A stretch of 64,000 nucleotides of DNA, taken from NCBI RefSeq assembly GCF_012935715.1, contig NZ_CP052860.1:1488001-1552000 (forward strand). Reading direction: 5' to 3'. Of the stretch, positions 45,801 to 46,552 are shown piece by piece. A program made the translations under genes and the position numbers. A model generated the notes under the pieces. That model worked only from the letters and a program-made list of their open reading frames with translations, had not been told where the DNA came from and did no database searches. Source of the stretch: Pseudomonas sp. ADAK13 (GTDB lineage Bacteria; Pseudomonadota; Gammaproteobacteria; Pseudomonadales; Pseudomonadaceae). Numbering within the stretch: position 1 is the stretch's first letter; every line of letters begins with the position of its first letter.

Positions 45801-45900
45801 TAAAGGGCCAGCAGGGTAAATCCCTTTAATTTGAGGGACGTTTCCGAGACAATCTTTCGGCCTTGTGCCTGCTGGGATGGGTGGCTAGTCTTCGGCCCTT

Positions 45901-46094
45901 CACTGCATATCAGTGATCGGGTTTAGTCGCCCGGAATTAGTGAGCGCAAGTTGTCGCCATGCTTCATGGCGGCTGTGCGCAGGGCACCTTCGGGTGCGCC
46001 GGGTTCCACTAGCCGGTCGACTAACCTGCGTACAGCCGCCACCCTCGTTTAGTCGCGCGGGTGTCAGCTCCTTACCTTCTAGTGGAGTTACACC
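45901..46094 (+). ncRNA. Structured 5' leader (candidate cis-regulatory RNA) before DUF6124 gene
   Basis: A long non-coding leader with a 15-bp stem (45968-45982 with 46026-46040, one G-U) enclosing a UUCG tetraloop hairpin (45984-45997) and a further hairpin (46002-46025, GGUU/AACC). A second hairpin, CGCCATG CTT CATGGCG (45955-45971), uses the first four bases of the long stem, so the two are mutually exclusive. The 10-mer GTTTAGTCGC is repeated at 45921-45930 and 46047-46056. CTCC at 46068-46071 can pair with the GGAG Shine-Dalgarno at 46084-46087. No named RNA family is claimed. Confidence 0.65.
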
Positions 46095-46397
46095 ATGCAT
46101 AAGCTTGTCCCAGATCCACCCAGCGACCTCCTCAAAGACCGCGCCGCCTTTAACCGCGCCCTCGAACACTACCTGCCATCGCAGGGCTTCCACACGATCA
46201 ACGAAGACCTGAGCTTCGAAGATTCCCTGCTCTACACCGCCAGCCTGCTGAGCAGCGCCTCGGCCACTGCGCTCGATTGCGGCGAGCTGCTGGAAAGCCC
46301 GCAGCGAGCGAAGATCCTGGCCGTGTGGCACTTGCTGGAAATTGCCAAGACTACGGTCGACCGCTCGATCGAATGCCTGCATCCGCGTAAGACTTAA
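46095..46397 (+). CDS. DUF6124 family protein
   Basis: A 100-residue cytoplasmic protein of the Pseudomonas-restricted DUF6124 family, with the characteristic middle EDSLLYTASLLSSASATALDCGELL and helical C-terminus (ILAVWHLLEIAKTTVDRSIECL). It appears fully alpha-helical. Function unknown. The GGAG site is 7 nt before the ATG. It is preceded by a structured leader, suggesting regulation after transcription initiation. Confidence 0.83.
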   Translation: MHKLVPDPPSDLLKDRAAFNRALEHYLPSQGFHTINEDLSFEDSLLYTASLLSSASATALDCGELLESPQRAKILAVWHLLEIAKTTVDRSIECLHPRKT

Positions 46398-46418
46398 GCC
46401 TTCATTGCCTGGCCGTCA

Positions 46419-46490
46419 GCTATCGCAGGCAAGCCAGCTCCCACAGGGGAATGCATTCCAAGTGTGGGAGCCGGGCTTGCCCGCGATAGC
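46419..46490. repeat. REP pair (inverted, reverse order)
   Basis: GCTATCGCAGGCAAGCCAGC (46419-46438) continues to CTCCCACA at 46445, then TGTGGGAGCCGGGCTTGCC starts at 46463 and runs to GCGATAGC at 46490. The pair is head-to-head in the opposite order to the one at 8711-8812. Confidence 0.85.
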
Positions 46491-46552
46491 GATCGCCCAG
46501 GCAACAGATATGCGTACAGCCAGTTACACTACCGCTCCCCAAAGGAGCCCGC

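Follow-up and report, generated by a model that had tools for sequence, protein, structure and literature searches.

The DUF6124 gene described here very probably (about 0.86) belongs to a chromosomal C4-type antisense RNA module that silences itself with private specificity, by a mechanism like that of phages P1 and P7. In these phages the C4 RNA obstructs ribosome binding on the transcript that encodes it. An initial annotation of this DNA had proposed a cis-acting element ahead of the gene, and a cis-encoded RNA element very probably does control it.

Identification of a C4 antisense RNA

In an Rfam scan of the whole 64-kb stretch of DNA analysed (the window), C4 antisense RNA (RF01695) was the sole match above a curated cut-off, scoring 82.6 bits against a cut-off of 45 over the full length of the model (1–87). 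The element, in which no named family had at first been recognized, is thus a C4 antisense RNA. No cis-regulatory Rfam family or riboswitch exceeded its cut-off, the only one listed being Pseudomon-groES at 19.3 bits against 50. Under permissive settings a c4-a1b1 element (RF03163) was matched over its full model (E 2.7e-8), at a score below its cut-off (Table 1); in the 19 loci scanned, c4-a1b1 lies upstream of C4 in all 19 and above the cut-off in 9. The isrK family (RF01394) reached 21.3 bits in the window against a cut-off of 50, and matched at E 0.5 or better in 17 of the 19 loci, in one of them above the cut-off.

Table 1. Positions of sequence features in the window
Feature	Position	Strand	Basis
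Whole module: promoter, a1b1, C4, a2b2/SD, DUF6124 gene	45801-46397	+	similarity among paralogues
-35-like TTGTGC	45863-45868	+	promoter pattern
-10-like TAGTCT, 17-nt spacer	45886-45891	+	promoter pattern
c4-a1b1 element (RF03163)	45885-45937	+	38.0 bits, below cut-off 46.7
10-mer GTTTAGTCGC, two copies	45921-45930, 46047-46056		sequence check
a1 (TTAGTCG), loop of CGGG/CCCG hairpin	45923-45929	+	complementary to a'
b1 (TTAGTG), weak	45937-45942	+	6 bp with b', including one G-U
7-bp hairpin	45955-45961/45965-45971		sequence check
C4 antisense RNA (RF01695), helices P1-P3	45962-46046	+	Rfam 82.6 bits, E 1.1e-14
15-bp stem	45968-45982/46026-46040		fully complementary, one G-U
UUCG hairpin	45984-45997		sequence check
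b' (GGTTCCACTAG), P3 loop	46002-46012	+	11-nt complementarity to b2, including G-U
a' (CGACTAA), junction strand	46018-46024	+	7/7 complementary to a1, a2
a2 (TTAGTCG)	46049-46055	+	complementary to a'
SD-masking CTCC	46068-46071	+	predicted pair probability 0.98 in free leader
b2 (CTAGTGGAGTT), containing SD GGAG	46079-46089	+	complementary to b'
SD GGAG	46084-46087	+	inside b2
DUF6124 start ATG	46095	+	sequence check
DUF6124 protein, 100 aa	46095-46397	+	PF19619 37.2 bits (cut-off 27), E 2.8e-9
Inverted pair of sequences	46418-46495		directly after module

Covariation in the stems, which the initial annotation had called for, is evident among 55 C4 RNAs: 99.7% of cells are paired, 14 of the 27 pairs contain double changes, and there are 108 double-change cells compared with 24.5 in shuffles, with 0 of 500 shuffles reaching 108. 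Helices P1 to P3 are thus conserved by covariation. The flanks of P1 are near-invariant in the same 55 sequences (AUGG on the 5′ side, ACC on the 3′ side), which fits an RNase P substrate.

The individual features read earlier from the leader are present. The 15-bp stem is fully complementary apart from one G-U, the cUUCGg loop closes a hairpin, the 10-mer occurs twice, and the 7-bp hairpin exists and cannot coexist with the 15-bp stem. The leader as a whole folds at -87.8 kcal/mol (shuffles, -67.8 ± 4.3; 0 of 200 equally stable). The competing helices are far from balanced, at -9.0 kcal/mol for the 7-bp hairpin versus -52.7 kcal/mol for the C4 stem, with predicted pair probabilities of 0.04 and 0.95–0.99. 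The proposal that CTCC masks the GGAG ribosome site is plausible, and such a stem is found in 38 of 69 loci compared with 21% of shuffles.

Loops and targets change together

The locus has the order a1 b1 – C4 – a2 b2 – gene, with a' of C4 complementary to a2 and b' complementary to b2, which overlaps the SD of the DUF6124 gene (Table 1). The repeated 10-mer acquires a different meaning from this arrangement: its two copies are real, as had been noted, but they enclose the a1 and a2 targets of a' and do not form part of a switch.

We examined 101 loci, 21 from the window's genome and 80 from other genomes of the same genus, the latter being best-scoring matches and not a random draw. Loops and targets change together at all four sites, and the stems covary. 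In the 21 loci of the window's genome, own versus swapped values were 8.82 and 5.94 for a1, 8.69 and 5.60 for a2, 9.39 and 6.78 for b1, and 9.66 and 6.72 for b2, each with 0 of 20,000 permutations as high. The same comparison across loci of the genus used 92 of the 101, nine C4s not being parsed, and gave 0 of 5,000 permutations at each site. Watson-Crick runs of at least 7 were found in 88 (a1), 89 (a2), 46 (b1) and 66 (b2) of these 92 loci, against a background of 14, 15, 8 and 11%, respectively, in a subsample of all pairings. The a' core takes 28 distinct forms among the 92.

Private specificity and hypervariable b sites

C4 copies within one genome have private specificity. The window's genome holds 21 C4 loci over the cut-off, with 21 different (a', b') pairs. 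When the four sites are summed, the own target is best for 21 of 21 C4s and the own C4 is best for 21 of 21 targets. The sites taken in part discriminate less completely: a2 and b2 alone rank the own partner best in 17 of 21 in both directions, a1 and b1 alone do so in 18 and 16 of 21 in the two directions, and single sites place it first, ties included, in 18 (a1), 17 (a2), 10 (b1) and 14 (b2). The window copy has a weak b1, its own b1 ranking 10th of 21. Private codes of this kind would prevent mutual silencing among tens of units.

Hypervariability marks the b sites. The syntenic copy of the window's module in genome G059 (L029) has diverged by 4% in flanking sequence and by 2% over the 5′ part of the module, but by 54% in the stretch around b1, 58% within b' and 29% around b2; the corresponding values in G048 (L028) are 14, 7, 62, 68 and 41%. 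Partial pairing is retained, with 9 (b1) and 11 (b2) unbroken pairs in L028; in L029 there are 6 pairs at b1 and 9 at b2, the latter with a single mismatch. The b sites therefore change fast and together, not always perfectly. On a bolder and doubtful reading, their rapid change may also reflect escape from silencing by resident units.

Proposed mechanism and alternatives

A promoter pattern (TTGNNN-N16..18-TANNNT) is found in 92 of the 101 C4 loci compared with 3.7% of shuffles. In the window the predicted promoter precedes the element in its entirety, and transcription would start near 45898, not downstream of 46040. This single sigma70-like promoter would drive one transcript, made up of a leader with a1b1, the C4 RNA and a2b2 and, after it, the DUF6124 gene. 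We propose that C4 is excised from the transcript, by analogy with P1 and P7 through RNase P (work cited in passages of PMC5320573). The excised RNA would pair in trans with DUF6124 mRNA through a'–a2 and, across the SD, b'–b2, and the latter pairing would block translation of its own mRNA and of any mRNA of the same specificity. With C4 covering the SD in trans, any C4 of matching specificity should keep the gene off. In the free leader the SD could also be masked by CTCC. We suppose that a1b1 acts as an attenuator in many relatives and, at the window locus, as a decoy or weak second site.

Attenuation of transcription is possible but unlikely as the main action. As with the CI RNA of phage P4, b'–b1 pairing would break an antiterminator, and an intrinsic terminator would form between a1b1 and C4. 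A terminator-like hairpin with a U-run does lie 14–24 nt before C4 in 48 of the 101 loci, compared with 176 of 2,020 shuffles, and in 8 of the 21 loci of the window's genome. In 42 of the 48 its 5′ arm has a predicted alternative partner upstream, which in 37 of these cases abuts or overlaps b1, b1 not being parsed in 3 of the 48. The c4-a1b1 and isrK matches upstream of C4 at 19/19 and 17/19 of the loci scanned are also consistent with attenuation. The window copy, however, has no such terminator of the P4 type and a weak b1, and in Gifsy-1 a constitutive C4-like RNA, STnc1160, left IsrK growth arrest unrelieved and more pronounced (passages of PMC4825925). The pattern suggests that terminator-bearing relatives have added a P4- or isrK-like layer of attenuation to silencing by C4.

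Titration of C4 by a short or uncleaved a1b1 RNA, which would turn the gene on, as discussed for IsrK, is likewise possible but unlikely. Such a sponge would agree with the duplication of a2 and b2 in a1 and b1, which change in step with the loops, and with the activation in trans by short IsrK RNA of its own read-through mRNA (passages of PMC4825925), but the window has no terminator for making a short a1b1 RNA, and b1 is weak.

It is very unlikely that the locus is a relic of a decaying prophage immunity region without present function. Its kin are phage systems and some DUF6124 genes without C4 keep an a1b1-like element (L023, L026), but complementarity is retained despite fast sequence change, the promoter pattern is widespread (92/101 loci), the 21 DUF6124 matches contain no stops, and searches of phages, plasmids and viral contigs, at the limits used, brought up no relative of the window's DUF6124.

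The riboswitch-like two-state cis switch of the initial annotation is extremely unlikely and found no support: overlapping hairpins exist, but the 7-bp hairpin (4% pair probability) is not kept, by eye in the alignment, in the syntenic L028 and L029, and the supposed sensor loops vary more than any other part, in step with their targets. A third complementarity, of a leader segment that mimics the 5′ arm of P1 with the 3′ arm, is significant over the 101 loci (own 9.39, cross 8.26; 0/5,000), with runs of at least 8 in 28 of them, so that some cis strand exchange is conceivable in relatives, but it is weak in the window (GGGTG only). Such a segment lies between a2 and b2 in L004, L006, L015, L018 and L019; in L006, L018 and L019 it tracks, by eye, the changes in the arm's sequence.

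The module, its site and its spread

The C4 RNA and its gene form a discrete inserted module. Close paralogues at unrelated sites (L003, L007, L030, L031 and L033, together with L100 and L128) share sequence with the window from 161–166 nt ahead of C4 as far as the DUF6124 stop codon or its vicinity. Distant paralogues (L001, L009, L013, L014) have only about 100 nt around C4 in common, and L011 somewhat more. In 12 of 29 loci of other genomes with the MatE orthologue, the 96-aa gene of the left flank adjoins MatE and the module is absent, with neither a C4 pattern nor a DUF6124 match; the gap between the two genes is 40–238 nt in the eight of the 12 that were read. In the other 17, of which L150 is one, no 96-aa gene was detected next to MatE. 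No transposase belongs to the module.

Two observations concern the same site. In L150 (3111-3455) a different DUF6124 gene, 28% identical to the window's, stands beside MatE, as if the site had been used twice. Directly after the module in the window is an inverted pair of sequences (Table 1), which we take to be REP-like; inverted sequences resembling it occur between the same two genes in some module-free genomes, for example L147 and L152.

Relatives of the window protein were found in 78 named loci, all from Pseudomonas, with C4 in 70. The closest is Pseudomonas sp. IPO3778, with 3169 of 3300 positions equal. Ten of the 70 C4s were not parsed, leaving 60 for a' and b'. Among these 60, a' is uniform and b' takes 31 forms; in the unparsed ten a' reads, by eye, CTGCTAA nine times and CGACCAA once, so that a' varies within the clade as a whole. 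Own versus swapped values for b' were 10.22 and 6.40 at b2 and 9.33 and 6.03 at b1, the largest of 5,000 permuted means being 7.49 and 6.87, and Watson-Crick runs of at least 6 were present in 38 (b2) and 48 (b1). The 60 relatives fall into 31 upstream contexts, two not being testable, a number that may be inflated by true orthologues with diverged flanks. A single context can carry different b' forms, and one b' form recurs across contexts.

A broader reading, which as a whole we regard as doubtful, would make these modules mobile units of about 0.6 kb, transposase-less and endowed with RNA immunity. A resident would silence newcomers with the same b, b alleles would diversify and shuffle between sites, and the cargo, consisting of DUF6124 or DUF3077 and unrelated antirepressor or antiactivator proteins, would act on cells without a matching C4.

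Distribution and relation to known systems

C4 was found in 110 of 119 sampled genomes of the genus (109 over the cut-off), with a median of 13 copies, at least 20 copies in 46 genomes and at least 33 in 16. Elsewhere in the class, under stricter filters and with counts taken up to 15 per genome, it was found in 17 of 273 genomes with 1 to 6 copies. DUF6124 is present in 95 of the 119 genomes of the genus and in 0 of the 273 others. Copy numbers of the two are correlated (Spearman 0.88 over the 119 genomes, with genomes lacking a listed match counted as 0 and C4 counted up to 33 per genome), and none of the 119 has DUF6124 without a C4 match at E 0.001. In the window's genome, 16 of the 21 C4s precede a DUF6124 gene, and 5 of 21 DUF6124 genes have no C4 match.

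The module resembles C4 of P1 and P7 (c4-icd-ant; RF01695) in belonging to the same RNA family by covariance model, in having a' and b' antisense to ribosome-site targets of the next gene on the same transcript, and in varying its specificity between variants (heteroimmunity, PMC12197685; immI operon, PMC8198154; passages of each). It differs in being chromosomal and dispersed, in 21 copies, with DUF6124 as cargo in place of icd/ant. The RNA itself is not new, since C4 and c4-a1b1 motifs were already predicted in Proteobacteria and phages by Weinberg et al. (2010; PMC2864571, in part), nor is C4 new in this order, its carriers including Pseudomonadales (passages of PMC5320573). Neither DUF6124 nor the number of copies nor covariation of loops with targets is mentioned in the passages of Weinberg et al. 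consulted here.

Acinetobacter baumannii Group 1 C4-like sRNAs are likewise numerous and chromosomal with a varying a', and RNA-seq suggests RNase P-like processing; their targets are left open in those passages (PMC5320573), whereas here the target is directly downstream and covaries with the loop. The P4 CI RNA/seqA/seqC and Gifsy-1 isrK-STnc1160-orf45-anrP systems also have targets up- and downstream of the antisense RNA (PMC4825925, in part), and 48 of 101 relatives here share a terminator between targets; the window copy differs from them in having no terminator and an isrK match far below the cut-off (21.3 bits against 50). Burkholderia cenocepacia ncS23/ncS24 similarly places an isrK-like RNA directly before C4 in one transcriptional unit, but as one pair and with other neighbouring genes (passages of PMC4603805).

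As far as we have searched, the insulated multi-copy chromosomal setting and the cargo (DUF6124, DUF3077, Bro-N, QslA-like) are new; DUF6124 found no mention in the literature searched, which covered few subscription journals. A classic single-copy phage immunity RNA thereby becomes a family of chromosomal genes with private codes, of which many genomes carry tens, and its natural variants make the specificity, limits and evolution of antisense RNA testable in one cell. DUF6124 and DUF3077, families of unknown function, gain a regulatory logic and a functional guess, and QslA-like and Bro-N antirepressor-like proteins would come under the same control.

Cargo genes

The DUF6124 protein is predicted to form helices at residues 12–26, 41–64 and 70–95 (pLDDT 82.5, pTM 0.56), and no stop codon interrupts the 21 matches of the window's genome. 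By analogy with the cargo proteins Ant, AnrP and Icd, our guess is that it may be a small helical regulator or a growth-affecting protein. ORFs after C4 were chosen by a simple start-codon and SD rule and compared with Pfam at E 0.001, leaving out three of the 101 (L060, L088, L127). The 98 scanned include 43 matches to DUF6124, 16 to DUF3077, 9 to Bro-N and 1 to QslA, and about 29 match no family; one protein may match two. Two Bro-N-like proteins have matches among the phage anti-repressors of PHROGs. DUF6124 and DUF3077 are homologous by profile comparison (96.9%), which gave no support for homology of DUF6124 with the MNRYM, LPEDLL or QslA-like sets, or of DUF3077 with the MNRYM or LPEDLL sets.

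A phage or plasmid origin of the window's DUF6124 was considered and rejected, there being no match, within the limits used, in IMG/VR, in phages or in plasmids. The distant paralogue L098 matches one phage record, near that record's end, and no plasmid. The LPEDLL protein has no phage match, and Bro-N L065 has no match in IMG/VR. DUF3077 occurs on five IMG/VR contigs (L167–L171), all five with C4 and a1b1; these genes lie mostly near contig ends, so that they may represent host flank.

Two DUF6124 genes of the window's genome have an a1b1-like element without C4 (L026, 674-780; L023, 780-861). In L026 the SD leader follows the a1 region without a break, which would fit a loss of C4 between the a1 and a2 repeats. 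PrrF RNA (159.7 bits) lies close downstream of another C4-less DUF6124 gene (L025, 1123-1272).

A motif P[N/D]P[P/S] or NPS occurs near the start codon of DUF6124, of some DUF3077 and of 52-aa icd-like ORFs, in proteins whose remaining sequence looks unrelated. In some loci a short ORF separates C4 from the main gene, an arrangement similar to that of icd ahead of ant in P1. In L005 (1501-2256; G000:C1:3040226 region), C4 precedes a 28-aa ORF and a 178-aa QslA-domain protein (PF18226, E 2.3e-10; PDB 4ng2, E 2e-7), which is probably under C4 control.
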